From: Candidatus Methanoliparum thermophilum
Lineage (GTDB): Archaea > Halobacteriota > Methanoliparia > Methanoliparales > Methanoliparaceae
Direction of reading: 5' to 3'
Length of the DNA: 64,000 bases
NCBI GenBank assembly: GCA_004212075.1
Contig: RXIF01000006.1
Span: forward strand, 172,358 to 236,357
The notes under the pieces are model-generated. The model ran no database searches, had not been told where the DNA came from, and worked only from the letters and a program-made list of their open reading frames with translations. Below, piece after piece: positions 10,012 to 30,561 of the stretch. How positions within the stretch are numbered: the stretch's first letter is position 1; each line of letters starts with the position of its first letter. Position numbers and translations under genes: made by a program.

Positions 10012-11243
10012 TTTAAAGCCTCCGAAAGGATTTCACTTAAATCATAGACCTTGAAAGGCTTACCAGATTCCTCAACCGCATCCGTGAGATTTCGTACGCA
10101 GAACGGGCAGGAGGTAACTATCGTATCGACACCAACGCTCTCCGCCTCCTTTACCCTTTCACCGGCAGTCCATAGCGAGAAATCTGGAAATGCAGATTTA
10201 ACTCCTCCACCTGACCCACAACACCATGCGTTCTCTCTGTTTCTTGGCATCTCGACGATATCCACCCCTATTTCTTCAAGAACCTTTCTCGGTTCTTCAT
10301 ATACAGGTTCTCCATATACCCCCATGTGCCTTCCGATGTGGCACGGATCGTGATACGTTGCGGTCATATCGATCTTATCATCGAACTTCACCTTCCCTTC
10401 ATCGATCAACGATGTGAAGAACTGAGAACTGTGAACGACATCGAATGCCAACCTTCTCAATCCCAATAGCTTCGGATAATCGCTTTTGAGCACGCGATAA
10501 CATCCTGCGCAAGAAGTTATGACCGTCTTTGCACCCGTCTTCTTTATCGCCTCGACGTTGTGTCTTGCCGTCTCCTTTGCCTTCTCCCGCTGTCCTGTTC
10601 TCAACAATGGGGATCCACAGCACCATTCATCTTCTTCCAAGACTCTAAACGGTATATCTGCCGCATCTAATGACCTAACGGTCGACTTAGCGATCTGTTG
10701 TTCTCTATAAGAGGAGGTGCATCCCGCAAAATAGACCACCCCTTCGTCTTTTGCCAGTCCCTCTTCCAACCACTCAAATCTCGCTTCGTGTGGCTCGTAA
10801 TATGGATTGTGATTCTCTTCGATGCTCTTCGCAAATCCTATATGCTTTGGTAGTGCGTGGCCCCGTTCCACCAAATTTTCTTTTAAATCCTCAAAAATTT
10901 CCGTGTGATTTGCCTTAAACCCGGTTAACTCCCGACATTGCTCGAAACAAGCCCCACATCCAGTACAACTGAATATTATTTGAGCTATACGTGGTGTAAC
11001 ATCATTTATTTCTCTCTCGACGAGCGCCCTGGCGATCTCCACCTTTCCCGCCGCCGAAAACGATTCAAATCCATAATAGGCGAAGGTTGGACAGATCGGC
11101 AACCACCTATCCAAGCTATGCCAGTCGGCCACGGTGCACAAGTGGCAGTGGAAACAATGATAAAACTCCCCCAAATAGTCGCTCAGCATCATCTCTCTCA
11201 CCCTTTTTTTCTCGTCATTTTTCATGATTTTTACTTCCTTCAT
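10008..11243 (-). CDS. GlcF/HdrD-like iron-sulfur protein with two CCG domains
   Basis: A 411-residue protein. The N-terminal third has ferredoxin-type clusters, CFHCHLC followed by a distant CP, and CTGCGACFEQC (about residues 93-103). The rest has two CCG domains: the first with EWCCGSPLLRTG and CAGCYRVLKSDYP, the second with HDPCHIGRHMGVYGEP, AWCCGSGGG and CPFC. CCG domains hold the non-cubane [4Fe-4S] clusters of HdrB/HdrD. Together with the coupled flavoprotein downstream it should oxidise an organic substrate and pass electrons to a thiol/disulfide or membrane carrier. The first cluster has an unusually long gap before its last Cys. It lies inside the island but shows no sign of decay. 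Confidence 0.82.
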   Translation of the reverse strand: MKEVKIMKNDEKKRVREMMLSDYLGEFYHCFHCHLCTVADWHSLDRWLPICPTFAYYGFESFSAAGKVEIARALVEREINDVTPRIAQIIFSCTGCGACFEQCRELTGFKANHTEIFEDLKENLVERGHALPKHIGFAKSIEENHNPYYEPHEARFEWLEEGLAKDEGVVYFAGCTSSYREQQIAKSTVRSLDAADIPFRVLEEDEWCCGSPLLRTGQREKAKETARHNVEAIKKTGAKTVITSCAGCYRVLKSDYPKLLGLRRLAFDVVHSSQFFTSLIDEGKVKFDDKIDMTATYHDPCHIGRHMGVYGEPVYEEPRKVLEEIGVDIVEMPRNRENAWCCGSGGGVKSAFPDFSLWTAGERVKEAESVGVDTIVTSCPFCVRNLTDAVEESGKPFKVYDLSEILSEALK

Positions 11244-18126: not shown

Positions 18127-18217
18127 GCGTATAACACAGCATAAAAAGTTTGTGCCTTACGGCACTCACCCAAATTTTTACTTCGCAAAAACTTCTTTTA
18201 TGCTTGGAACGTTAGGC
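18127..18217 (+). repeat. attC-like site 1
   Basis: R'' is GCGTATAAC (18127-18135) and R' is GTTAGGC (18211-18217), an exact match to GTTRRRY. The L arms are CAGCATAAAA and TTTTATGCTTG, complementary with one extra base, the usual extrahelical base of attC. The centre has a GTGCC-n4-GGCAC hairpin and the block CCCAAATTTTT...CGCAAAAACTTC shared with sites 3 and 4. R'' and R' are not complementary to each other, as expected at a junction of two different cassettes. Confidence 0.8.
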
Positions 18218-18261
18218 GAAACGGTGACTTTAAGTAAGACAAAAACATTTGAGGATATAAG

Positions 18262-19239
18262 ATGAAAACGATACACAAAATAATAATCGGTGATTCCCGA
18301 AGAATGAAAGAGGTACCAGATGAATCAGTACATCTTATCATTACATCCCCACCTTATTGGCAATTGAAAGACTATGGAAATGAGAATCAAATAGGTTTTA
18401 ATGATACTTATGAGGAGTATATAAACAACCTTAATTTAGTGTGGAGTGAATGTCATAGGGTTTTACATAAGGGCTGTCGTTTATGTATTAATGTTGGCGA
18501 CCAGTTTGCTCGTTCTGTATATTATGGAAGGTATAAGGTTATTCCGATAAGAACAGAGATAATCAAATTCTGTGAAAGTGCAGGATTCGATTACATGGGT
18601 GCTATTATCTGGCAGAAAGTCACTACATGTCATACAACTGGGGGGGCAACTGTGATGGGCTCTTTTCCTTATCCAAGAAACGGGATTCTTAAATTAGACT
18701 ATGAATTTATTCTGATTTTCAAAAAATATGGAGATTCTCCAAAAGTGAGCAAAGAAATCAAAGAGCAATCAAAACTAACACAAGAGGAATGGAATCAATA
18801 CTTTACTGGACACTGGAATTTCCCAGGTGAAAAACAGGATAAACACCTTGCAATGTTTCCTGAAGAATTACCCAAGCGACTTATTAAAATGTTCAGTTTT
18901 GTTGGAGATACTGTGCTTGACCCATTTCTTGGAAGTGGAACTACCTCTTTGGCGGCTAAGAACCTGAGTAGAAACTCAGTGGGATATGAAATAAACGAGG
19001 ATTTTTTACCTATCATAAAGAAAAAACTTGGACTAAAACAAAGTACTATTTTTCAAAATGTTGAATTTGAGATAATCAAGCAAGAAAATGTGAAAATAGA
19101 CTTTAAAGAAGAGATTAAAAGACAGCCTTATATCTTCAAAGATCCTATAGGATTTGATAAAAAGATTAATCCTAAGAAATTAAGATTTGGCTCTAAAATA
19201 GACAATTCTCATCTGAAAGGGAAACATATTATACTGTGA
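18262..19239 (+). CDS. Site-specific DNA methyltransferase (beta class, probable N4-cytosine), M.MjaI-like
   Basis: A 325-residue modification enzyme. Catalytic motif IV TSPPYW (about residues 29-34) comes before AdoMet-binding motif I DPFLGSGTTSLAA (about 218-230), the beta-class order. SPPY points to N4-cytosine methylation. ATG 18262 follows TTGAGGATATAAG, a good ribosome-binding site. The stop overlaps the next gene's GTG by four bases. It is followed by an SNase-like gene and an MjaI-like nuclease, so it should protect the host at the nuclease's site; MjaI-type enzymes recognise CTAG, and the same here is inference. Confidence 0.88.
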   Translation: MKTIHKIIIGDSRRMKEVPDESVHLIITSPPYWQLKDYGNENQIGFNDTYEEYINNLNLVWSECHRVLHKGCRLCINVGDQFARSVYYGRYKVIPIRTEIIKFCESAGFDYMGAIIWQKVTTCHTTGGATVMGSFPYPRNGILKLDYEFILIFKKYGDSPKVSKEIKEQSKLTQEEWNQYFTGHWNFPGEKQDKHLAMFPEELPKRLIKMFSFVGDTVLDPFLGSGTTSLAAKNLSRNSVGYEINEDFLPIIKKKLGLKQSTIFQNVEFEIIKQENVKIDFKEEIKRQPYIFKDPIGFDKKINPKKLRFGSKIDNSHLKGKHIIL

Positions 19240-19550
19240 AGGAAATAATCTCATCAGAAATTTTGATTTTAAATAATGGATTAAAAATCAGGTTATTGGG
19301 TGTAAAAGAAAGACCAGAAAAGAATGGAGAGGCTATTCAATTTTTAAGAGAAAAAGCCTGTGGACAAAAGGTATTCATAAAGTTCGATACTACGAAGTAC
19401 GATGAGAAAAATAACTTGCTTTGCTATCTCTATCTGTGGAACAAGATTTTTCTAAATGCCCATTTGATTAAAAATGGTTTGGTTGATGTGGATGTTGCAA
19501 AAGATTATAAATACAAATCTAAATTCTTAACTTATATGGGGACAAAATAA
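19236..19550 (+). CDS. Staphylococcal-nuclease-like (SNase/TNase) domain protein
   Basis: A 104-residue product from GTG 19236, overlapping the methyltransferase stop. It has the SNase-like OB-fold pattern: LNNGLKIRLLGVKE, REKACGQKVFIKFDTTKYDE, LLCYLYLWNKIFLNAHLIKN and GLVDVD with a final YKYKSKF. The usual catalytic Arg/Glu/Arg set is hard to place, so it may be a binding rather than a cleaving module. A stand-alone SNase-like gene between a methyltransferase and its restriction enzyme is unusual. Its stop shares one base with the next ATG, so the three genes form one tight operon within one cassette. Confidence 0.65.
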   Translation: MKEIISSEILILNNGLKIRLLGVKERPEKNGEAIQFLREKACGQKVFIKFDTTKYDEKNNLLCYLYLWNKIFLNAHLIKNGLVDVDVAKDYKYKSKFLTYMGTK

Positions 19551-20182
19551 TGGCAAAAGAATGGATATTAAATCAAGCGAATATGAGATGGGGACTGACG
19601 AAGAAAAACAAAGTTGGTCCGGTTTCGGAATTGATAAGAAAGTGTTCCCCTAAATCTTTGAAGGATTGGGAGAGGTATTATTATAACAATGTATATCCCA
19701 AACAGCATTTGGAAGAACTTGGAAGAAGGCTATACATAAAGATAACCGAAGTATGTCAAGCAGAAATTGAAAGCATAACAGAGGAAGATTGTATTGATTT
19801 TATCACCAATTTGGTAATTGGTAGAACCTACGATGGCTATCAGTCTGAAATACAAACCATTTATGGGCAATTACAAGAGGCGTTAGGTGTTAAAGTGGAA
19901 CCTGCCCCGGATGAATGGGATAGGGGATACAATGTTGATTTCTTCATCAAGGTGAGGGAGAAATATATTGGGCTTCAAATTAAACCAGCAGGGTACGCTT
20001 ACATTACCCAAATCATCAACGAACTAAAATTTCAGAAAAAGACACATGAGAAATTTACTGCCAAATATGGAGGTAAGGTGTTCTATGTTATTTCAGTAAA
20101 GGAAGGTAAGAAGAAAATCATTTACAATCCAGAGGTCATCGAAGAAATCAGAAAAGAAATTAAGAGGCTGGAGAAGGAATGA
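19550..20182 (+). CDS. MjaI-family type II restriction endonuclease
   Basis: A 210-residue protein beginning AKEWILNQANMRWGLTKKNK and VGPVSELIRKCSPKSLKDWE, which matches the RE_MjaI family as I know it. A PD-(D/E)xK-like core is visible: GYQSEIQTIYGQLQ (Glu), VDFFIKV (Asp) and LQIKPAG (Q-x-K), about residues 97-150. Its ATG overlaps the previous stop by one base. In cassette context this is a portable restriction-modification unit. The predicted target CTAG rests on the family name enzyme, not on this sequence. Confidence 0.75.
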   Translation: MAKEWILNQANMRWGLTKKNKVGPVSELIRKCSPKSLKDWERYYYNNVYPKQHLEELGRRLYIKITEVCQAEIESITEEDCIDFITNLVIGRTYDGYQSEIQTIYGQLQEALGVKVEPAPDEWDRGYNVDFFIKVREKYIGLQIKPAGYAYITQIINELKFQKKTHEKFTAKYGGKVFYVISVKEGKKKIIYNPEVIEEIRKEIKRLEKE

Positions 20183-20193
20183 CGCCACCGCAT

Positions 20194-20338
20194 CGCCTAA
20201 CACAGCATATATGCTTCGGGCTAACTAACGCCCTTGCCCTTCGGATCGCCTAACAGCATATACGGCTCGCTCCCGTTGGTCGCTCACCCAAATTCCGCCT
20301 TTGGCGGAACTTCGCATACACCGATGACGTTATACGCC
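20194..20338 (+). repeat. attC-like site 2, with an extra upstream half-site
   Basis: A first R''-type box CGCCTAAC (20194-20201) is followed by ACAGCATATATGC and GC-rich sequence. A second CGCCTAAC (20247-20254) then starts the full site, which ends in R' GTTATACGCC (20329-20338). The centre has CCCAAATTCCGCC-n4-GGCGGAACTTC, a stem with the same outer words as the other sites. The first box, with its upstream bases GCCACCGCAT, is the one complementary to the start of the methyltransferase cassette. The outer half is therefore the genuine end of that cassette, and the inner full site belongs to another, lost cassette. Confidence 0.72.
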
Positions 20339-20363
20339 ATTGGCTTAAAGAAGGAAAATAAAA

Positions 20364-21493
20364 ATGGTTGAGAAAAGAAAACTGTCTGTCTTTGAGAAGT
20401 ACCTGACACTCTGGGTTTTACTTTGCATTGGTGCAGGCATCTTTTTAAGGAAGATAGCACCTGAGGTTGCAGTCAAATTAGACTCCCTTTCAATAATGTA
20501 TCGATCCCCATTGCTATCTGTCTATTTTTATGATGTATCTAATCATGGTGAAGATAGATTTTGCAGAAGTAGTAAAACGACAAAAACGCCTAAGCCTGTG
20601 GCTTTAACATTGTTTATCAACTGGGCGATTAAGCCGTTTATTATGTATCTGATTACTTCATTCTTTTTGGGACACCTCTTTAATGGATTCTTGCCTGGGA
20701 CCGAGATTATCAAGACAGGGTAAGAAGTTGAGTTATGGAGAAGTTACATCTCAGGCGCTATTCTTTTGGGGTTGCTCCCTGCACGGCAATGGTGTTGATG
20801 TGGAGTTATCTGGCAAAAGGTAATGATAGGCTTACTTTAGTCATGTGTGCCATAAACTCTCTGACAATGCTTGTACTTTATGCACCTCTCGGAGGATTTT
20901 TACTTGGTGTAAATGCAATGCCTATACCTTGGCAAACAATCTTGCTTTCAGTAATGATTTATGTGGCTTTGTCATTGGTTGTAGGATACTTTTCACGGAT
21001 GTGGATTATCAAATCCAAATGATTAGAATGGTTTAATACAAGGTTTTTGCATCGGCTCACACCGATTAGCATAGTAGCGCTCCTTGCCACGTTAATCCTC
21101 TTGTTCTCTTTCAAAGGGAAAATTATAATGAACTATCCGCTAACAATACTATGGATTGCCATCCCGCTTTTTATCCAAACTATATTCATTTTTAGTCTGG
21201 GATACTTTGTTTTAGCGAGATTCCTAAGATTCTCCTATCATGACGCTGCCCCGTCTGCAATGATTGGTGCATCAAATCATTTTGAGATTGCAATTGCAAC
21301 AGCAACTATGCTTTTTGGATTGTCTTCGGGTGCAGCGTTAGCAACAGTAGTCGGTGTTTTGATTGAAGTTCCAGTAATGCTTATGCTTGTTTCGATTTGT
21401 AAAAGGTACTGTTATTTATTTGAAGAGTGCCATTTAGATTTACTACAATGCAAGGCTCGTTATAGAGTTGCTGAAACAGAGGGGATACGATGA
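20364..21493 (+). pseudogene. ACR3-family arsenite efflux permease, decayed cassette gene
   Basis: All parts of ACR3 are readable. There is a start MVEKRKLSVFEKYLTLWVLL and LPGTEIIKTG. After a TAA (20721-20723) and a frameshift comes [18 protein letters not shown], the family signature with its essential Cys. This continues to WIIKSK, an in-frame TGA (about 21020), then [19 protein letters not shown] and the [18 protein letters not shown] signature. A further frameshift lies near 20510-20560. The intact protein would be about 370 residues. The start has a good AAGGA ribosome site. At least four lesions make it non-functional unless the sequence is faulty. Confidence 0.85.
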
Positions 21494-21522
21494 GAGAATA
21501 TTGTTTAAAAAATGAACCAACG

Positions 21523-21606
21523 GCGTATAACACGGTGTTTGTAGGAAACTACGCTTCCTCAAATTTTGCTTTGCAAAACTTCACAAACACCGAGCCCGTT
21601 ATATAC
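21523..21606 (+). repeat. attC-like site 3
   Basis: R'' GCGTATAAC (21523-21531), arms CGGTGTTTGT and ACAAACACCG (perfectly complementary over ten bases), a centre with CAAATTTTGCTTTGCAAAACTTC, and R' GTTATATAC (21598-21606). The bases before R'', CCAACG, extend the complementarity to the start of the ACR3 cassette (CCAACGGCGTATAAC against GTTATACGCCATTGG, 14 of 15). Confidence 0.8.
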
Positions 21607-21637
21607 AATTGGTCGCTTGAAAAAGGAGAGTTAGAAT

Positions 21638-23341
21638 ATGAACGAAGAAGAAAAACTTGAATTTGAAGATCAAGAAGAAGAGCAACCGATTGAAATCCTA
21701 CCTAAAGAACGACGGGTCTATTCAGATAAACCTGATAGGAGTATTTTTGAATTATATCGCCAATATCAAAAGGGGAATTTAGAGCTACGGCCAGAGTTTC
21801 AAAGGCTTCAGGTTTGGGATAATCGAAAATCGAGTCGCTTAATAGAGTCAGTTTTATTAGAGGTTCCTATACCTGTTATTTATTTAAGCGAAGAATCGGA
21901 CAACAAGTATTCAGTCTTAGACGGACAGCAAAGACTTAATGCTTTTATTAAATTCCTTGAAAATAATCTCAAATTAAGCGGTTTGAGAATTTTAGCGGAA
22001 CTGAATGGGAAAAGATTTCAGGATATTCCAAAGAATCTTCAGGATAAATTTGAAAATGCTACCATTCGTATTATTGAAATTAGAAAAGAATCACAATCTG
22101 ACATAAAATTTGAGATTTTTGAACGATTAAATACAGGAGCAGTCCAACTCAATGCACAAGAATTGCGAAATTGTATCTATCGAGGAAAATATAACGAGTT
22201 GCTGAAAGAGTTATCTGAAGATAAGGATTTCCAATTTTTGTTGGGACTTAAAAAACCTCATCATCGTATGCAAGATAGAGAATTAATATTGCGCTTCTTT
22301 GCCTTTTACCATAATACATATCTCAAATATACCCCTCCAATGAAACGCTTTCTGAACAAGGAAATGGAGAAATATAGAAATTTAAGCAATGCTGAAGAAA
22401 AGGAACTTAGAAGTGTTTTCAAAAAGAGTGTTAGATTGTCAAAAACAGTTTTTGGAAATAAGGCTTTTCATCGATTTGCACTCGGTTCTAATAAAGACCC
22501 AAATGGATACTATGATAAGAAAATAAACAAAAGCCTTTTTGATATTATGCTGTTTGGTTTTACAATGTATGATGAAAATCAAATTATTCCAAACAGCGAT
22601 GCTATTAGAGAAGAATTATTATGGATGATGACACACGAAGAAGACTTTGTAAATGCAATTTCTGGTAGTGGAACTGACAGCAAGGAGAAAACTATAACGC
22701 GCTTTGACAAATGGCTTTCTGCTCTTAAAGAAATCGTGGGAATTCCCATGACCGAACCAAGAACATTCTCCCATCAATACAAAAAGCAACTATGGGAATC
22801 TAATTCCACTTGTGCGATATGTGGACAAAGGATTCAAATTGTTGATGATGCGGAGGTTGACCATGTAGAGCAATATTGGCGAGGGGGAAAGACGATACCC
22901 GCAAATGCACGATTAACACATCGTTATTGTAATAGAAGTAGACCACGAGATGATATACAACTTGACACCGAGAAAAAGGTTACTACTTCTACTTTTCACA
23001 CATCTCAAAGGAAATCAAAGGCTAAATATCCCAGAGTAATATCTAGGGGAGAAAGAACCCCTCGTCAAGCATTTCGTATTCCTATATTGGAGGTACTTAT
23101 AGAACTTGGCGGTAAAGGTAAAGTACATGAAGTATTAGAGAAGGTTGAGAATAAAATGAAACATATTCTTAATGATGTTGATTATGAAAAACTACCCTCT
23201 GGAGGTATGATAAGGTGGCGGAATACTGCTCAATGGGAGAGACTCGTAATGGTGCAGGATGAATTATTACGTTCAGATTCTCCCAGGGGAATATGGGAAA
23301 TTACAGAAAAAGGTAGAGAATTCTTGAAGGACAACAAATGA
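21638..23341 (+). CDS. DUF262-HNH nuclease with C-terminal Mrr_N-like winged helix
   Basis: A 567-residue three-domain protein. The N-terminal DUF262 domain (about residues 35-230) has the ParB-like motif VLDGQQRLNAF and FERLNTGAVQLNAQELRN. The middle has a Cys-type HNH nuclease: CAICG (about 393-397), then VDHVEQYWRGGKT, NARLTHRYCNRSR. The C-terminal 90 residues (FRIPILEVLIELGGKGKVHE ... IWEITEKGREFL) look like the Mrr_N winged helix. DUF262-DUF1524 proteins (GmrSD, SspE, BrxU) act on modified DNA or in phosphorothioate and BREX defence; here a true HNH replaces DUF1524. AAAGGAG precedes the ATG. The gene fills its own cassette. Confidence 0.82.
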   Translation: MNEEEKLEFEDQEEEQPIEILPKERRVYSDKPDRSIFELYRQYQKGNLELRPEFQRLQVWDNRKSSRLIESVLLEVPIPVIYLSEESDNKYSVLDGQQRLNAFIKFLENNLKLSGLRILAELNGKRFQDIPKNLQDKFENATIRIIEIRKESQSDIKFEIFERLNTGAVQLNAQELRNCIYRGKYNELLKELSEDKDFQFLLGLKKPHHRMQDRELILRFFAFYHNTYLKYTPPMKRFLNKEMEKYRNLSNAEEKELRSVFKKSVRLSKTVFGNKAFHRFALGSNKDPNGYYDKKINKSLFDIMLFGFTMYDENQIIPNSDAIREELLWMMTHEEDFVNAISGSGTDSKEKTITRFDKWLSALKEIVGIPMTEPRTFSHQYKKQLWESNSTCAICGQRIQIVDDAEVDHVEQYWRGGKTIPANARLTHRYCNRSRPRDDIQLDTEKKVTTSTFHTSQRKSKAKYPRVISRGERTPRQAFRIPILEVLIELGGKGKVHEVLEKVENKMKHILNDVDYEKLPSGGMIRWRNTAQWERLVMVQDELLRSDSPRGIWEITEKGREFLKDNK

Positions 23342-23358
23342 TAAAAAGCGACCTCCCA

Positions 23359-23445
23359 GCGTATAACACAGCATAAAAGGTTCGTGCCCAATAGCACCCA
23401 AATTTTTATTTCGCAAAACTTCTTTTATCTGCAAAACATTAGGCG
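23359..23445 (+). repeat. attC-like site 4
   Basis: R'' GCGTATAAC (23359-23367), arms CAGCATAAAAG and CTTCTTTTATCTGC (complementary with one extra base), the shared centre CCCAAATTTTTATTTCGCAAAACTTC, and R' ATTAGGC (23438-23444), one base from GTTRRRY. The bases AAGCGACC, six before R'', pair with GGTCGCTT near the start of the DUF262-HNH cassette. Confidence 0.78.
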
Positions 23446-23511
23446 AAATGAGATCGAATTTGACCTCCATAATATCGCAAATTTAAATAAAAGTAGGATA
23501 TATTCGGATAA

Positions 23512-25110
23512 GTGAAAGAGCAAGATGAAGGGTATGATATAATGAAAAATGGAGACGAAAGACATTCAAGCGTAAATTGGAGGAAAGTTTTAGATAATTA
23601 TCGCAGCAATTATAATTATGCAGAAACATGGGAAATAACAGTTTTAGAACTTCTTGCTAATGCTGTTGATGCAAAAGCCACAGATATCAAATTTAGATTT
23701 TATAGAGATGAAAATAATGTAACAATTATCTGTATGGATAATGGAAAAGGGATGAATTACTCTCAGTTCATAGAATATCATAACTTGGGCTCTTTATCAA
23801 AAGATAAAACGACTGGCACTATTGGATTTGCTGGAATTGGGGCTAAACTTTGTATCGATCTTTGCGATAAAATATATTCAGAAACTAGCAATGGGAAAGA
23901 GGTATATTCATCTGAATGGTGGTATAAAAAGACCGATATAGAACCTCATTACAGATTAGTATCGCCTCAAGAATTGCTACCATGGCCAACAGGAACCTAT
24001 ATAAAAATTATTAATTTAATCGCCCCATCACTCAACGCTGATTCGATAACGAAATTAATAATAGAGAATTATCAATATTCCATTGAACCGTACGGCCCTT
24101 TGTCAATTTTCATCAATGATAACAAAATTTTAAGCCATAGACCAACAGACACTCCCCATTCTTTCCAAAAAACGGTACGTAAAAATAAAAAACTTAAGAC
24201 GACTCTTCACATGAATGGAGAATTTTTCTTTGTGGACGATGAATATATTAAAAATACAGAAAAGATTGAAGGGGAATATAGTTCAGGTATTAATATTGTT
24301 GTTTGCGGAAAAACTATTGTAAGAGGAGAATTTTTCAACATTTTGCCTCAAATAAAACCTGGCCACCATGCCTATATAACAGGATATATCAGATGTGATG
24401 AGCTCATTGAGATTACTAAGACATCTAAAGATGATTTTAATAGAAGGACATCTATATGGTGGCATTTTATTACTAATGCCTCACAAATATTTGAAAGCTG
24501 GTTAAAAGAAATAGATAAATGGTACGAGCCACCAAGAAGAGAAGAAGAGTATTTACAAACTGTTATGAACGAAATTGAAAAAAATTTAAATACCATCATA
24601 AACAATTATCCCGAACTTATTAAGAATCTTCCTTTTCTGTCAAAAATTAAAAAACCAACTCCGATACCGGATATTGGTGGTAACCAAAAGGGGAGTGAGA
24701 TAGATGGTGGCCAATTAACAACAGGAACATTTGGTGGGGATTCCATTGGATCGGAGGAGGAAATACCAACACTTGGGCCTGATGAAGATACAAAAGGTGT
24801 AATTGTTGATGATAAAGGAGATAAAAAAGTTAAAACCCCTCAGAAAAGAGTGAAAGGACTGAAAATAATCCTATTAGGAGATGAAAATCGCAAGGAAGAA
24901 ATTTGGTTCGATCCATCAGCGGGTGCTTTTATTATAAATACTTCACACCCAGCATATATAATTGCAAAGAGAAATGTTGAAGCTTTAGATATATATGTAA
25001 CATACATATATTTAAATTACCTACTTGAATTGCAAGGTGGAATTAATGATGACGAAAAGAAGACATACCTATGGAATATATATAGCGATTATTTAGGTCA
25101 ATTGAGGTGA
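23512..25110 (+). CDS. GHKL (Hsp90-like) ATPase, MORC/MutL-type, candidate defence protein
   Basis: A 532-residue protein whose first 220 residues form a GHKL ATPase. It shows the N box ITVLELLANAVDAKATD, the G1 box MDNGKGM and the G2 lid GTIGFAGIGAKL, as in MORC, Hsp90 and MutL. The middle resembles the transducer region. From about residue 375 comes a Gly/Asp-rich linker (PIPDIGGNQKGSEIDGG, then LGPDEDTKG), and then a C-terminal alpha/beta domain I do not recognise. Start GTG 23512 is the longest option; ATG 23542 (residue 11) is an alternative. Eight bases after its stop begins a helical partner. GHKL ATPases paired with small proteins occur in phage-defence loci; this role is inference. 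Confidence 0.72.
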   Translation: MKEQDEGYDIMKNGDERHSSVNWRKVLDNYRSNYNYAETWEITVLELLANAVDAKATDIKFRFYRDENNVTIICMDNGKGMNYSQFIEYHNLGSLSKDKTTGTIGFAGIGAKLCIDLCDKIYSETSNGKEVYSSEWWYKKTDIEPHYRLVSPQELLPWPTGTYIKIINLIAPSLNADSITKLIIENYQYSIEPYGPLSIFINDNKILSHRPTDTPHSFQKTVRKNKKLKTTLHMNGEFFFVDDEYIKNTEKIEGEYSSGINIVVCGKTIVRGEFFNILPQIKPGHHAYITGYIRCDELIEITKTSKDDFNRRTSIWWHFITNASQIFESWLKEIDKWYEPPRREEEYLQTVMNEIEKNLNTIINNYPELIKNLPFLSKIKKPTPIPDIGGNQKGSEIDGGQLTTGTFGGDSIGSEEEIPTLGPDEDTKGVIVDDKGDKKVKTPQKRVKGLKIILLGDENRKEEIWFDPSAGAFIINTSHPAYIIAKRNVEALDIYVTYIYLNYLLELQGGINDDEKKTYLWNIYSDYLGQLR

Positions 25111-25117
25111 ATATAAA

Positions 25118-25675
25118 ATGATTTTTGCAAAAGAAGACATCAATACGCCCATTCCCGCAATGATAAAGAAGATTAAAAAAACAAATGGATATACGACTGA
25201 AATTGTTTTTTCCCTTCAAGATGTTATGAATAACAAACAGCTTTTAATTATTAAAGAAGAGGTAATAAATGAATTTAACAAACTATTAAGAAAAATAAAA
25301 AACATCGTAGGCACAAACATCCCATCAAAAATACCGAGAAAAAAGATATGGGAAATAGGGCATACAATTCTTGAAGAAAGGAAAAAAATTGGTAAAAAAT
25401 ATGGGGTGGATATCACTAATATTATTCAAGCAGTTGCTGAGGAAATAGGTCTTTCTAAGAGTTCTATCCAGTATATGGTTCAATTCAGTGCTATGCTTCC
25501 CAAAAATAAAGTAAGGGAGGAAATTAGTTGGGGAAAATATCAAGAGGCTATACAACTTATAAATAAAACAGATTTTAATCAATGTATTACTCTCATAGAG
25601 AAGGGCGAATTAAAAACCACTAAGGAGATAAGAAATTATGTGAGACAAAAAAATAATGAGAGGAGGACTAAATGA
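25118..25675 (+). CDS. Helical DNA-binding-like partner of the GHKL ATPase
   Basis: A 185-residue, Lys-rich protein. The region IWEIGHTILEERKKIGKKYG then SKSSIQYMVQFSAML (about residues 88-135) resembles the helical N-terminal domain of DUF1016-type nucleases (W-x-I-G-x-x-I, then S-x-x-x-L-x-x-M-x-x-F), but the PD-(D/E)xK half is not seen. The end (TTKEIRNYVRQKNNE) is helical. GAGGTGA precedes ATG 25118 by six bases. It shares a cassette with the ATPase, so the two were mobilised together and probably work together. No firm family assignment. Confidence 0.5.
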   Translation: MIFAKEDINTPIPAMIKKIKKTNGYTTEIVFSLQDVMNNKQLLIIKEEVINEFNKLLRKIKNIVGTNIPSKIPRKKIWEIGHTILEERKKIGKKYGVDITNIIQAVAEEIGLSKSSIQYMVQFSAMLPKNKVREEISWGKYQEAIQLINKTDFNQCITLIEKGELKTTKEIRNYVRQKNNERRTK

Positions 25676-25705
25676 ATACTCACTTCAGTATAATTGGTGC
25701 CCTTT

Positions 25706-25862
25706 CACCTAATAGGCAGTCAAATCCGACTCTCTGCTCTTTTCGGTCGGTACGGTGCTATCGCACTCACTTAACAGAGTATATCTGTATCTGGTTCGGG
25801 CTACGCCCTCCCCCAAATTCCTCGCCTCGCTCGGAACTTCAGATATACTCAAAACGTTATTC
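25706..25862 (+). repeat. attC-like site 5, with an extra upstream half-site; end of the array
   Basis: A first R''-type box CACCTAAT (25706-25713), preceded by CCTTT, is complementary to the start of the GHKL cassette (ATTAGGCGAAATG). About 55 bases later a full site starts: R'' CACTTAAC (25768-25775), arms GAGTATATCTG and CAGATATACTC (perfect over eleven bases), centre CCCCAAATTCCTCG...CGGAACTTC, R' GTTATTC (25856-25862). No gene follows: 52 bases separate it from the right inverted-repeat arm. Confidence 0.75.
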
Positions 25863-25914
25863 ACCATTATCTGAAACATAACGATGAGGAATATAAAAAA
25901 TTGTGTAAAATATG

Positions 25915-26009
25915 TTTTAAAATCTTCTAACATGCAAAAAAAAATGGCTATTGAAAAATGTGAAAAAGTTGAAAATCACTAGAAAAATCGATAGTGCCTT
26001 TATAAAAAA
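25915..26009. repeat. Right arm of the long inverted repeat
   Basis: Reverse complement of 5161-5252, differing by eye only in one A-run (9 against 6). Its outer end (CCTTTATAAA) is continuous with the TATA-like sequence TTTATAAAATAG that lies upstream of the por operon. Confidence 0.9.
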
Positions 26010-26075
26010 GTTTATAAAATAGTTATTGAAAGATAGATAATCTCTGTTTTATAAACAAAACAAAAGGAGATCGTT
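26010..26075 (+). promoter_or_regulatory. Promoter and ribosome-binding site of the por operon
   Basis: GTTTATAAAATAG at 26009-26021 and TTTTATAAAC near 26047 are TATA-like. AAAGGAGATC at about 26062-26071 is a strong Shine-Dalgarno sequence about seven bases before ATG 26079. Confidence 0.55.
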
Positions 26076-26078
26076 TCA

Positions 26079-26612
26079 ATGAAAGAAATAAGATTTCATG
26101 GACGGGGAGGACAGGGTGCTGTAACCGCGGCAGAACTTTTAGCTGTTGCAGCATTTTACGATGGATATTTTAGTCAAGCATTTCCTGCTTTCGGTGTTGA
26201 AAGGCGTGGTGCTCCAGTATTAGCCTTTACAAGGATATCAGATAAGAAGATAAGGTTAAGGAGCCATATTTATAATCCTGATTATGTAATTGTACAGGAT
26301 TCTTCATTAATAAGCTCGGTAAATATAGCGGAAGGGTTAAAATATGGAGGAGTTATCGTTATAAACAGTACAAAAGATCTTAGAGAGTTAGGCAATGTAA
26401 GAACTATCGATGCCACCAAGATCTCTTTGGATACGATAGGCAGACCTATAACAAACACAACGATGCTTGGTGCATTTGCAGGCGCAGTAGATCTCATTAG
26501 CATAAACTCCATAAAAAGAGCTGTTGGAGAAAGATTTGTAGGAGAGCTTAGAGAGAAGAACATCCAAGCAGTGGAGATAGCATACAATCAAATGAAGGAG
26601 TTGAATAGATGA
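26079..26612 (+). CDS. porG: Pyruvate:ferredoxin oxidoreductase, gamma subunit
   Basis: A 177-residue gamma subunit of a four-part 2-oxoacid:ferredoxin oxidoreductase, which converts pyruvate and CoA to acetyl-CoA, CO2 and reduced ferredoxin, reversibly. The family motif GRGGQGAVTAAELLA is at residues 9-23, followed by FPAFGVERRGAPV. Order gamma-delta-alpha-beta with four-base or shorter gaps is the usual archaeal por operon. Substrate preference (pyruvate rather than branched-chain oxoacids) is inferred from subunit lengths and order. Confidence 0.88.
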   Translation: MKEIRFHGRGGQGAVTAAELLAVAAFYDGYFSQAFPAFGVERRGAPVLAFTRISDKKIRLRSHIYNPDYVIVQDSSLISSVNIAEGLKYGGVIVINSTKDLRELGNVRTIDATKISLDTIGRPITNTTMLGAFAGAVDLISINSIKRAVGERFVGELREKNIQAVEIAYNQMKELNR

Positions 26613-26899
26613 ACAAGGCAAAGAGAAATGATATAAGATTGATTCCAGGAGGAATAACAAGACCAAAAACGACCATTACAAACAAGACCGGTTTCTGGAG
26701 AACTTTTATTCCAATCTTTAACGAAGAAAGATGTAACAAATGTGGAATATGCGATATATTCTGTCCAGAAAACTGTATTATCATAAATGAAGAAGGATAT
26801 AGGCATCCAAACTACGATTTCTGCAAAGGATGCGGAATCTGCGCAGAAGAATGTCCAAAAGATGCTATAAAAATGATACTTGAATCAAAGGAGGGATAA
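26609..26899 (+). CDS. porD: Pyruvate:ferredoxin oxidoreductase, delta subunit (2x[4Fe-4S] ferredoxin)
   Basis: A 96-residue ferredoxin-type subunit with two cluster motifs, CNKCGICDIFCPENC (about residues 43-57) and CKGCGICAEECP (about 72-83). The N-terminal PGGITRPKTTITNKTGFWR is typical of the delta chain of Por. Its ATG overlaps the porG stop by four bases (ATGA). It passes electrons from the thiamine-diphosphate site to free ferredoxin. Confidence 0.9.
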   Translation: MNKAKRNDIRLIPGGITRPKTTITNKTGFWRTFIPIFNEERCNKCGICDIFCPENCIIINEEGYRHPNYDFCKGCGICAEECPKDAIKMILESKEG

Positions 26900-26901
26900 A
26901 G

Positions 26902-28074
26902 ATGAATGATAATATAAAGATTTTGGAAGGTTCTATGGCGATTGCATCTACCGTAAAAACCTGTAAACCAAATATTGTCTCTGCTTATCCTATTACACCC
27001 CAGACACATATTGTAGAAAATATAGCAAAGATGGTAGCTGATGGGGAGATAAAAGCAGATTATATAAGAGCTGATTCAGAATTTTCTGCTTTATCCACGC
27101 TGATAGGGGCTAGTGCTACTGGAGCTAGAACTTATTCCTCTACTACATCACAAGGTCTTGCATTGATGTTCGAAGCTCTATTTAATGCATCAGGTATGAG
27201 ACTGCCTATCGTAATGACAGTAGTGAATAGAGCTCTCTCTGCTCCATTAAACATATGGAACGATCAACAAGATTCAATATCTGTAAGGGACGCAGGATGG
27301 ATACAGCTTTATGCAGAGGATAATCAAGAGGCATGCGATCTCTTACCGATAGCATACAAGGTTGCAGAAGATAAAGAGATTCTTCTACCTACTATGTGTT
27401 GTATGGATGGTTTCATCCTAACACATACCTTCGAGCCTGTAATAATCCCTGAAGAATCCTTAGTAGATGAGTTTCTCCCTCCTTTTCGACCGGATTTTAT
27501 ATTAGATCCTGCAAACCCATTAACTTTTGGTGCCTATGCTGGACCGGAGATTTATACGGAATTTAGATACCAACAGCACAATGCAATGATAAAAGCCGAA
27601 GAAAAGATAGAAAAGGCAATGAATGAGTTTGGAGAGGTCTTTGGGAGAGAGTATGGTCTGATCGATGAATATAGATTGGATGATGCGGATATCGTTATCA
27701 TATCGATGGGGTCTCTGTTAGGCACCATTAAAGACGCAGTGGATGAGATGAGAGAGGATGGGATAAAGGTAGGTATCTTAAAGATAACCAGTTATAGACC
27801 ATTCCCTAAAGAGAAGATCTATAATAAGATTAAAGGGATAGAGAAAGGAATAGTCTTTGAGAAAGATGTAAGTATTGGCACGGGTGCAGGACTTTTGAAC
27901 GATTTAAAAGCTGCTTTATATGGTAAAAAACAAACACCATTTTTATATGGTTTTGTTTTAGGATTAGGTGGTAGGGATGTGGGGATGAATGATATAAAAG
28001 ATGCTGTAAAAAAAGTAAAAACTCTTGAATTAGAAGATTTTGGATTTATAAATCTTAGGAAGGAAGTATTATGA
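26902..28074 (+). CDS. porA: Pyruvate:ferredoxin oxidoreductase, alpha subunit
   Basis: A 390-residue alpha chain. The early motif [15 protein letters not shown] (about residues 30-44) is characteristic. The segment [20 protein letters not shown] that follows also fits, as does [20 protein letters not shown] for the cofactor-contacting part. The C-terminal third has [19 protein letters not shown]. The length matches archaeal PorA. It starts two bases after porD and overlaps porB by four bases. Confidence 0.92.
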
Positions 28075-28940
28075 GTTCGCAATTGTTTGCACCAGGACAT
28101 ACTGCCTGTTCAGGTTGTGGTATGCCTATAGCTATTAAGCTGATACTGGAAGGTAGCGGAAAAGATATCATTGTTGTATCGCCTACTGGTTGTTTAGAGG
28201 TTACAACGACCCGTTATCCTACATCAGCATGGGGTGTCCCATGGATACATTCTCTATTTGAGAATGCTGCAGCAGTAGCATCAGGGATTGAGAGAGCACT
28301 AAAAGTTCTTAATCGGGATGCAAACGTTATAGTTATAGCAGGAGATGGTGCCACTGTAGATATAGGAATTGGCGCTTTGAGTGGAATGTTTGAACGAGGA
28401 GATAATGTAACATATATATGCTACGATAATGAGGCTTACATGAACACAGGGGTTCAAAGATGCAGTTCTACTCCATATGGTGCATCAACAACCACGTCTC
28501 CTGTAGGTAAACTCTCATTTGGAGAGGATCGTCCAAAAAAGGATCTACCTGCGATTGCCGTGGCACATGGTGTGCCTTATGTTGCAACAGCCTCTATTGG
28601 ATATCCTAAAGATGTAATAAGAAAAATAAAAAGGGCAAAAGAGATTGTTGGACCAAAATATATCCACATTTTGACACCTTGTCCAACAGGATGGAGATTT
28701 GATGAAAATAAAACAATAGAGATTGCAAAATTGGCTGTTGAAACTGGATTGTTTCCTATATATGAGATAGAGGGTGGAACACTCATAAAAGTAAAAAAGA
28801 TAAAGAATAGGAAGCCAGTAGAGGAGTATTTAAGATTGCAGGGAAGATATAGACATATTTTAAAAGGATTTAAAGATCAATTAGAGATAATTCAAGAGAT
28901 TGCAGATAAAAATGCCGAAAAATTTGGCTTAGATGGATAA
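28071..28940 (+). CDS. porB: Pyruvate:ferredoxin oxidoreductase, beta subunit (thiamine-diphosphate binding)
   Basis: A 289-residue beta chain. CSGCGMP (about residues 13-19) and later Cys residues ligate a [4Fe-4S] cluster. The thiamine-diphosphate motif runs from [12 protein letters not shown] (about 98-109) to [11 protein letters not shown]. The protein completes the porGDAB set; its start overlaps the porA stop as ATGA. The next gene, purO, starts two bases after it. Confidence 0.92.
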
Positions 28941-28942
28941 TT

Positions 28943-29548
28943 ATGTACATAGGTCGAGCGGTAATAGCGGGATATACGAATGAAAAAAAGGTTTTTTTAG
29001 GATATATTCTTGCATCTATGTCTTTTCCAAAGAGGAGAGCAAGGATAGACGAAGAATCTATCAAGATAGAGCCTTTAAAAACTGCCGATTATAATAATCC
29101 ATATATAACTTACAACTGTATGAAAAAAGTAGAGAAAGATAAGGCTGTAGTATCTAACGGCATACATACAGACGTAATTGCAAACAAGTTAGATTCTGGA
29201 TATTCTGGAAGAGATGCGATCGCTATATCTTTATTTGCTATGGATTATGAGAAAGATGAATATAATACTCCAAGGATTGCAGCGTGTTTTGATAATAGAT
29301 CACTATATATCGGTATTATAGAAAAAGAAAAAATTATAATCGATAAAGTCAGAAATGACAGATGTATGCTTATTTCTACATACAATAAAACTGTTCCAGA
29401 GGAAATATCTATAAAAAGATCGACCGCTAAAGATATAGCAAAAGAGTTGTGCATGCTAGATTACGAACATATTATCTGTTCGGCCGTTGTATGTAGAAGA
29501 GAAGAGAATGATTTTGAGTTTGCAACAGAAGAAAAAAATAGGTTGTGA
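28943..29548 (+). CDS. purO: IMP cyclohydrolase, archaeal PurO type
   Basis: A 201-residue enzyme closing the ring of FAICAR to form IMP, the last step of purine synthesis in many archaea that lack bacterial-type PurH. It has the family pattern MYIGRAVIAGY, SMSFPKRRARID, PYITYNCMKKVE and VVSNGIHTDVI. The length fits (about 200). It is placed directly behind porB with a two-base gap, so it is probably co-transcribed, though the functions are unrelated. Confidence 0.85.
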   Translation: MYIGRAVIAGYTNEKKVFLGYILASMSFPKRRARIDEESIKIEPLKTADYNNPYITYNCMKKVEKDKAVVSNGIHTDVIANKLDSGYSGRDAIAISLFAMDYEKDEYNTPRIAACFDNRSLYIGIIEKEKIIIDKVRNDRCMLISTYNKTVPEEISIKRSTAKDIAKELCMLDYEHIICSAVVCRREENDFEFATEEKNRL

Positions 29549-29599
29549 TGAGCAATAAATAAAAAGTATAAATATTAGAAATAACATTAAGATAATAAA

Positions 29600-30493
29600 A
29601 TGAGATTAAACAATGTTGAGATAGAAGAAACATTTGCAGAAGTTTTTTCTATGAAATGTGCACGAGTCTTGATAACAGCGCTCAATGAAAGATGGGCAAA
29701 AGTTGCTGCAACGGAAGCAACGGGTTTTGGAACGTCTATAATAGGTTGTCCATCTGAGGCAGGGATAGAAAAATATTTAACACCGGAAGAAACACCCGAT
29801 GGAAGGTTTGGAGCATATATACAGATTTATCATGGAAAAACGGAAAAATTGGAGGATCAGATCTTGGAAAGGATTGGACAGTGTGTCCTAACTTCTCCTA
29901 CAACTGCTGTATTCAACGGTCTGCCAAACGCAGAAAAACAGTCAAATATAGGGTTTAAACTAAAGTTTTTCGGGGACGGATTCGATGAAAAGAGAGAAAT
30001 AAACGGTAGAACGGTTTATTCCATCCCTATAATGGAGGGTGATTTTATTATAGAAGAGAAGATAGGGATCGTAGATGGTATTGCTGGAGGAAACTTTTTT
30101 ATAATGGCAGAGAACCAGATGTCAGCATTAAACGCGGCAGAGGTTGCTGTAGATGCTATCTTTAACATAGAAGGTTGTATTACACCGTTCCCAGGAGGGA
30201 TCGTAGCAAGCGGTTCAAAAGTTGGATCTAACAAGTACAAGTTTCTAAAAGCTTCTACAAATGAGAAGTTCTGCCCGACGTTGAAAGATAAGATAAAAGA
30301 CAGCCAAATCCCAGAAGGAGTAAACGGCATTTATGAGGTCATTGCCAATGGTATGAGCTTAGATCTGGTCAAAGAAGCGATGCGAAAAGGTATAACTGCT
30401 GCAACAAAGGTTCCTGGTGTTGTAAAGATAACTTCAGGAAACTACGGAGGAAAATTGGGAAAATATACGATAGATCTTAAAGATCTTTTTTGA
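29600..30493 (+). CDS. ftr: Formylmethanofuran:tetrahydromethanopterin formyltransferase
   Basis: A 297-residue Ftr, which moves the formyl group between methanofuran and tetrahydromethanopterin in the cytoplasm, one of the core C1 steps of methanogenesis, reverse methanogenesis and the Archaeoglobus pathway. Typical segments are EETFAEVFSMKCARVLITAL, GFGTSIIGCPSEAGIE, QIYHGKTEKLEDQ, CVLTSPTTAVFNGL and TPFPGGIVASGSKVGS. The length is exactly in the family range. A TATA-like AAAAAGTATAAATATTAG at about 29560-29577 suggests its own promoter. Its presence defines the metabolic type of the host. Confidence 0.95.
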   Translation: MRLNNVEIEETFAEVFSMKCARVLITALNERWAKVAATEATGFGTSIIGCPSEAGIEKYLTPEETPDGRFGAYIQIYHGKTEKLEDQILERIGQCVLTSPTTAVFNGLPNAEKQSNIGFKLKFFGDGFDEKREINGRTVYSIPIMEGDFIIEEKIGIVDGIAGGNFFIMAENQMSALNAAEVAVDAIFNIEGCITPFPGGIVASGSKVGSNKYKFLKASTNEKFCPTLKDKIKDSQIPEGVNGIYEVIANGMSLDLVKEAMRKGITAATKVPGVVKITSGNYGGKLGKYTIDLKDLF

Positions 30494-30561
30494 TCTTCCT
30501 ATTTTATTACATTTTTTAATTTTTTAATAAAAACATAAATTTAAAAATTAATATTTATAGT

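Follow-up and report, generated by a model that had tools for sequence, protein, structure and literature searches.

Can a gene-cassette array belong to an integron when no integrase stands beside it, and which enzyme would then work its sites? The question is raised by a stretch of 64,000 nucleotides, here called the window, from the genome of the archaeon Candidatus Methanoliparum thermophilum (assembly GCA_004212075.1, contig RXIF01000006.1, positions 172,358 to 236,357 of the forward strand), in which four gene blocks, predicted to be mobile as cassettes, are bounded by five attC-like sites. We consider it quite probable that the window holds an orphan cassette array of an integron class in which the integrase would act on folded cassette sites despite having no I2 helix, i.e., the insertion specific to IntI integrases. 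Together, this type of site and the recombinase that adjoins it in other genomes likely constitute an overlooked kind of integron.

Structured sites and the logic of cassettes

The five sites, A to E (Table 1), belong to a CCAAA...CTTC type and were found, on the plus strand only, by a covariance model designated R1 (E 3e-15 to 9e-10), which was trained on 25 sites from other genomes, picked for perfect stems and excluding the window. No match beyond these five was obtained when the window was searched with R1 up to E = 1. The core pattern CAAATTYY..RRAACTTC..RTTA matched five times in the 64 kb and not once in 100 shuffled sequences. A first-pass annotation, made from the sequence alone, had placed five structured sites here, had listed the letters of their R'' and R' boxes, and had proposed that an attC covariance model should recover at least four of them on the plus strand; all five are present, the letters are correct, and our own model, R1, recovered 5/5. 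Other searches were less productive: Rfam yielded tRNA only, a first pairing scan of the window that required R''/R' pairing inside one site listed 0/5 sites, and RNAalifold on a MAFFT alignment of the five gave 8 pairs, the main stem being absent. Earlier site detectors, which missed or misplaced some sites (e.g., B and D in the window), were superseded by the exact core pattern and the covariance model.

From 5' to 3', a site comprises R'' (ending in TAAC), one nucleotide, stem α of ~10 bp and then two variable hairpins, the first followed by CCAAA and the second by CTTC; after these come the second arm of α, ~5 nucleotides and R' (GTTA....). For the analysis of the stem, 139 of 160 unique sites were retained. 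Stem α is symmetric in 131 of them, Watson-Crick pairs occupy 1308 of 1391 positions, and there are 87 distinct α sequences among the 139 sites. In a set of 25 sites selected for good stems, changes on both sides occur in 10/10 pairs of α (covariation score 0.672 vs. 0.176 after shuffling), and sliding the α partner abolishes pairing. A search by geometry only, without the core, gave 92 matches in 2.16 Mb vs. 12 on the reversed sequence, and its matches show an inner hairpin of variable sequence enclosed by CAAA and CTTC segments that are fixed. When whole sites were folded, the bottom strand folded better in 124/139 cases. Wobble pairs in stem α numbered 54 on the top strand vs. 29 on the bottom strand, as counted with a site finder that admitted top-strand wobbles only. 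Since stem α and the side hairpin favor opposite strands, the argument from wobbles was dropped.

The hallmarks of attC, i.e., R'' and R' boxes and complementary inner arms, are present in the sites of the window, with the stem of site B half broken; this site is partly decayed, as 5/10 of its main-stem pairs are non-standard or gapped in the R1 alignment. Ahead of it, at 20194-20253, a second R'' and a partial arm look like the half-site remnant of an earlier event. The complementary L arms that had been described earlier were found, and on the plus strand the extra, unpaired base belongs to L', the 3' arm. In canonical attC sites, the extrahelical base is located in the L'' arm. The R' box GTTATAC deviates from the consensus GTTRRRY.

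In integrons, the two boxes that delimit a cassette, its R'' and the R' at the opposite end, derive from a single circle and should, hence, be complementary. Over 35 pairs of sites, R'' agreed with the R' of the previous site at 4.29/6 positions vs. 2.97 with its own R' and 3.32 after shuffling, and 0/20,000 shuffles scored as high. A second detector supplied 49 consecutive pairs, among them three pairs of the window that were placed manually and two erroneous ones, also of the window, in which an undetected site is passed over. In these, positions 5-9 of the R box matched at 3.53/5 vs. 2.32 after shuffling, and the adjoining 10 nucleotides at 3.53/10 vs. 2.61, with 0/5000 shuffles as high in either case. 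Within the window, R' of site A is the reverse complement of the extra R'' at 20194 in 9/9 positions, followed by 6/10 matches in the next 10 nucleotides, so that this copy extends the inverted repeat of the cassette ends (pair A-B0). Likewise, R' of site B is the reverse complement of R'' of site C (9/9, then 7/10). Judging from this tendency of R'' to mirror the R' before it as its reverse complement, the five sites bound cassettes, and the cassette rule is upheld over the 49 consecutive pairs.

A recombinase beside the arrays

A tyrosine recombinase adjoining arrays was first met at five loci (L213, L215, L217, L220, and L221). A profile of these five was run on 80 site-bearing genomes, the regions of the hits were retrieved, and duplicates (G026 = G434, G401 = G141) were removed before counting. 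A site detected with R1 lies within 5 kb of 19/39 recombinases scoring at least 230 bits, vs. 2/30 full-length, lower-scoring ones from the same genomes (Fisher p 1.6e-4). At all 19 of these loci, the nearest site is directed away from the recombinase; when all sites near the 39 recombinases are considered, 35 are outward and 4 inward. Nine low-scoring fragment hits were kept apart from the control, and 3/9 have sites, all of which are outward. With the exact core pattern instead of R1, the counts were 15/39 vs. 3/39 for low-scoring recombinases, and 19/19 sites were outward. A search of 392 genomes of the phylum gave 26 hits in 22 genomes and 14 new recombinases that were not selected for sites. 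Five of these 14 have sites, 13/13 of them outward, with the nearest one outward in 5/5 loci. Core sites were present in 12/22 genomes with the recombinase vs. 36/370 without it (p 8e-7). The locus L265 (Dehalococcoidia) has a layout of its own, consisting of a recombinase gene with an internal stop, one outward site and then a run of oppositely directed sites; this arrangement is either an inversion or a pair of arrays that face each other.

Should cassettes be inserted by this recombinase, a box next to its gene can be predicted from the first R'' of the array. This predicted attI-like box was present at 9/9 positions in 14/22 loci and at 8/9 in six, whilst shuffles gave 1.17 loci on average at 9/9, with a maximum of 7. 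In further loci, it was found at 9/9 in 5/5, which brings the combined count to 19/27 at 9/9. Unusual boxes were matched as well, e.g., GTTGTGCGA, GTTCAACGC, and GTTAAACTC, and dif-like palindromes directly precede the box in many loci. In Ca. Methanolliviera, a member of the same family as the host of the window, the recombinase gene is followed in one row by attI GTTATATGA, then by a cassette and then by a site whose R'' is TCATATAAC. The reading frame of this recombinase is missing a portion of its catalytic region and includes one unread base, and the gene appears defective.

The array-side recombinases tested all score above the XerA-family cut-off NF040815 (5/5, 226.9 to 266.2 bits vs. 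220). They remain below the cut-off for integron integrases, a model that matched in two pieces because, as the alignment with nine IntI revealed, the IntI-specific insertion is absent. This insertion is carried by 9/9 IntI, and none of the array-side recombinases examined has it. Between KGxKDR and RHS, there are 103 residues in 5/5 IntI measured vs. 54-63 in 36/39 recombinases, the remaining three being unmeasurable. The nearest solved structures, both by sequence and by predicted fold, are those of IntI (2a3v) and XerA (5hxy); the overall TM-scores of the fold comparison were low, and only its ranking was used. In a midpoint-rooted tree, in which rows of <215 residues were omitted and which was based on an alignment omitting six recombinases with an in-frame stop, the nine IntI form a single clade (100/100). 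The IntI side of the tree (fork 91/90) takes in 23 of 33 high-scoring recombinases, including two that are adjacent to IntI (83/51), and the other 10, including four array-side ones, group with Xer-type proteins. The branching order is not firm enough to place the origin of IntI inside the array-linked group. Of 7997 protein clusters that were scored, 7723 match the profile with an E of at most 1e-60, a count taken irrespective of neighboring arrays. Plain housekeeping Xer genes were considered as an explanation of the array-side recombinases and rejected; the association with arrays speaks against housekeeping at a single dif site as their sole role.

In the mechanism that we propose, the recombinase would excise a cassette as a circle and insert it at attI, a GTT box that directly follows dif-like palindromes. 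Probably, a single strand of each site would fold into stem α with a pair of side hairpins, whose junction carries the conserved CCAAA and CTTC; these motifs may substitute for the extrahelical bases and the I2 helix of IntI.

Cargo and host genome

The gene blocks had been said to lie on one strand and to carry typical cassette cargo. The main open reading frames (ORFs) between the sites are on the plus strand, and restriction-modification, a nuclease and an ACR3 arsenite pump were identified with Pfam, PADLOC, and TIGR00832. The three ORFs of the pump cover positions 1-105, 112-201, and 212-327 of TIGR00832 in succession; the stretch from 20364 to 21493 is either a broken gene or affected by sequence errors. 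The nuclease of cassette 3 resembles defense proteins (PADLOC NsnA, E 6.5e-96; PD-T4-2_A, E 4.6e-55). In cassette 4, the matches of the first protein to a sacsin-type ATPase domain and of the second one to DUF1016_N are under the respective cut-offs, and the second protein is weakly similar to the PADLOC candidate PDC-S02. From their sequences, these two genes are perhaps an unnamed defense pair.

Table 1. Sites, cassettes and genes of the array, with positions in the window; the presumed cassette bounds are placed between G and TT of R'.
Feature	Position	Strand	R''	R'	Evidence or content
Site A	18127-18219	+	GCGTATAAC	GTTAGGCGA	R1 75.2 bits, E 3e-15; core pattern, 0 expected
Cassette 1	18212-20329	+			Methyltransferase, SNase-like tail ORF, restriction enzyme
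Type II DNA methyltransferase	18262-19239	+			Pfam N6_N4_Mtase, PADLOC MTase_II
SNase-like tail ORF of methyltransferase	19236-19550	+			Pfam SNase
MjaI-type restriction enzyme	19550-20182	+			Pfam RE_MjaI, PADLOC REase_II
Extra R'' copy, 53 nt ahead of R'' of site B	20194-20201	+	CGCCTAAC		Sequence and word search
Site B	20246-20337	+	CGCCTAAC	GTTATACGC	R1 51.8 bits, E 9.3e-10
Cassette 2	20330-21598	+			ACR3-type arsenite efflux pump in three ORFs
ACR3 ORFs	20364-20723, 20735-21022, 21047-21493	+			TIGR00832
Site C	21523-21606	+	GCGTATAAC	GTTATATAC	R1 61.9 bits, E 4.1e-12
Cassette 3	21599-23438	+			Nuclease
GmrSD_N / HNH / Mrr_N nuclease	21638-23341	+			Pfam
Site D	23359-23446	+	GCGTATAAC	ATTAGGCGA	R1 56.8 bits, E 6.4e-11
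Cassette 4	23439-25856	+			Two genes
HATPase_c_3 protein	23512-25110	+			Pfam
DUF1016_N-like protein	25118-25675	+			Pfam
Site E, right end of array	25767-25864	+	TCACTTAAC	GTTATTCAC	R1 64.2 bits, E 1.1e-12
Right boundary of array	25865-26005				blastn, homology with congeneric genome G007 begins at 26005

To the right of the array, the homology with G007 starts 140 bases beyond site E, extends from 26005 to 30502 of the window with 80.9% identity (blastn) and spans the por-ftr block; no site of the cassette type was found on the G007 contig homologous to this block.

The host genome assembly comprises 1.26 Mb in 12 contigs and is 86% complete. A genome-wide search with R1 gave 12 sites at E <= 0.01, i.e., the five of the window and seven more on contigs C1, C2, C3, and C4, the weakest of the latter at E 0.0098. 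On C3, two sites (L222:9121-9213 and 10666-10748) flank a type I restriction-modification cluster and point apart, and a third one lies at C3:132582; on C1, two minus-strand sites are 1.7 kb apart (G000:C1:255149-257003). Within the same family, the relative G017 shares a site with record RXIL01000131.1 of Ca. Methanolliviera hydrocarbonicum, and the region G017:C37:4054-6785, likewise of Ca. Methanolliviera, contains five consecutive plus-strand sites, a second array in the family.

The earlier description of the array as lacking an integrase applies to the whole host assembly, in which the search that had been proposed for an IntI-type recombinase with the IntI-specific insertion found no such enzyme in the 12 contigs, at 86% completeness. 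Above the Pfam cut-off there is just one tyrosine recombinase, a XerA-like protein of 178 amino acids encoded on another contig (L001:1456-1989), which matches the family model from position 92 on, without the usual N-terminal domain. An attI-like box was searched for in the window and not found. As such sites in other genomes adjoin a recombinase without the insertion, together with an attI-like box, a search for the insertion would miss the likely partner. The array of the host genome is presumably mobilized in trans, or it was acquired pre-assembled.

This site type is found in archaea and bacteria. The listing across the two domains holds at least 118 stretches, chance matches included, of which none was counted as a site without a stem or a model match. 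The 19 stretches on viral contigs were excluded from the site counts; according to the 201 rows listed, 18 of them share one near-identical gene stretch and the remaining one is without the stem. Because the site type occurs in both domains, the cross-domain transfer of cassettes that had been suggested for this array is plausible.

Alternative readings and known systems

Several observations weigh against an integrase of this kind acting on these sites. Recombination is deduced, as is the folding strand, for which the whole site and stem α give opposite signals. The figure of 99% paired positions for the 25 selected sites is biased, since perfect stems were selected. In the window, pairing between sites C and D and between D and E is partial, and full R''/R' pairing is seen in 2/4 cassettes. 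The host genome has no array-side recombinase. Elsewhere, no site lies within 5 kb of 20/39 recombinases, some of which are at contig ends, and 9/14 of the further recombinases are without sites as well. Five of the 39 founded the profile since they are beside sites; without them, the count is 14/34. The four inward sites are all in locus L265, and the site is inward at both low-scoring full-length recombinases that have one. The attI prediction fails in L254 and L265 (6/9 each). Furthermore, most relatives are metagenome bins, with G387 being a single contig of 1.92 Mb.

The least improbable of the alternatives takes these for ordinary attC sites on which a true IntI acts in trans, the neighboring recombinases being Xer-type genes that have nothing to do with them. 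The classical consensus is fitted by R' boxes like GTTAGGC, and IntI above the cut-off is present in 6/50 genomes with this site type. Furthermore, integrons were reported in 75 archaeal metagenome-assembled genomes, mostly as arrays without integrase, and archaeal attC sites were functional with the class 1 integrase IntI1 in E. coli (PMC9668308). In the genomes that hold both this site type and a true IntI, however, R1 found such a site at 0/9 IntI loci, whereas the box beside the non-IntI recombinase fits the first cassette at 9/9 in 19/27 loci, and the nearest site is directed away from that recombinase in 24/24 site-bearing loci. We therefore regard this alternative as improbable. The earlier label of an attC array is upheld in part: the archaeal chromosome does contain an array of integron-type cassettes with no integrase nearby. 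The assignment of the sites to IntI-type integrons is not supported, the nine IntI loci being devoid of them.

A XerA-type enzyme might, instead, recombine double-stranded dif-like cores, with the hairpins serving otherwise, e.g., in transcription termination. The scores of the array-side recombinases above the XerA-family cut-off (5/5) and the dif-like palindromes at attI would suit such an enzyme; the letters of α vary, however, whilst its pairs are kept at fixed distances from the R boxes, which would be needless for a terminator or a double-stranded core and makes this explanation very unlikely. That the sites are non-mobile or MITE-like repeats dispersed between genes, as single scattered sites in many genomes and the inverted repeats at the site ends might suggest, is hardly credible in view of their fixed orientation relative to the recombinase and of the closer fit, in 35 pairs, of R'' to the previous R' (4.29/6) than to the R' of the same site (2.97).

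If an integrase without the insertion indeed works these arrays, the literature shows why it may have gone unnoticed. The archaeal survey used IntegronFinder, which demands the IntI-specific domain (PMC9668308); with such standard detection, platforms of this kind would be filed as arrays without integrase. Archaeal cassette arrays without integrase have already been reported (PMC9668308), and this aspect of the array is hence no novelty. For the capture of cassettes, the I2 helix has been described as necessary, and also as the element that enabled integrases to recombine single-stranded sites (PMC7790495). Among the open papers of PubMed Central, preprints excluded, no study was found that links cassette arrays with an I2-less integron integrase, and none was found on Methanoliparum or Methanolliviera. 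The array-side recombinase family is large by profile matches, and with a clade of integrases without I2 beside structured arrays, laboratory experiments could address directly how integrons arose. A tentative extension, to which we give somewhat less than even credence, is that integrons predate IntI: integrases without I2 would have acted on folded sites in archaea and bacteria, IntI would have branched off within them and gained I2 later, and many "integrase-less" arrays of archaea and candidate phyla would be complete integrons, their integrase being invisible to present-day tools.

Compared with integrons of the IntI type, the present sites differ in their 10-bp stem, their CCAAA-hairpin-CTTC junction and, apparently, in the arm that carries the extra base. 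The putative integrase is without the IntI-specific insertion, and attI is accompanied by dif-like palindromes. As in the IntI integrons (PMC9668308), the cassettes are on the same strand with one structured site each, the core is GTT and the cargo includes restriction-type genes; R'' is complementary to the previous R', attI is beside the integrase, and the array is directed away from it. The array-side recombinase resembles the dimer recombinases XerA, XerC, and XerD (NF040815, TIGR02224, TIGR02225) in having no insertion, in scoring above the XerA cut-off and in the dif-like palindromes near its gene; unlike these, it adjoins cassette arrays, and 23/33 of its kind are on the IntI side of the tree. 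A further comparison is with the integron-like subgroup in a survey of tyrosine recombinases, which, like the array-side enzyme, is close to IntI and in which the insertion is incompletely conserved (PMC8138268); in the accessible part of that survey, its insertion-less members are linked to no cassette array or site, whereas the recombinases described here adjoin both.

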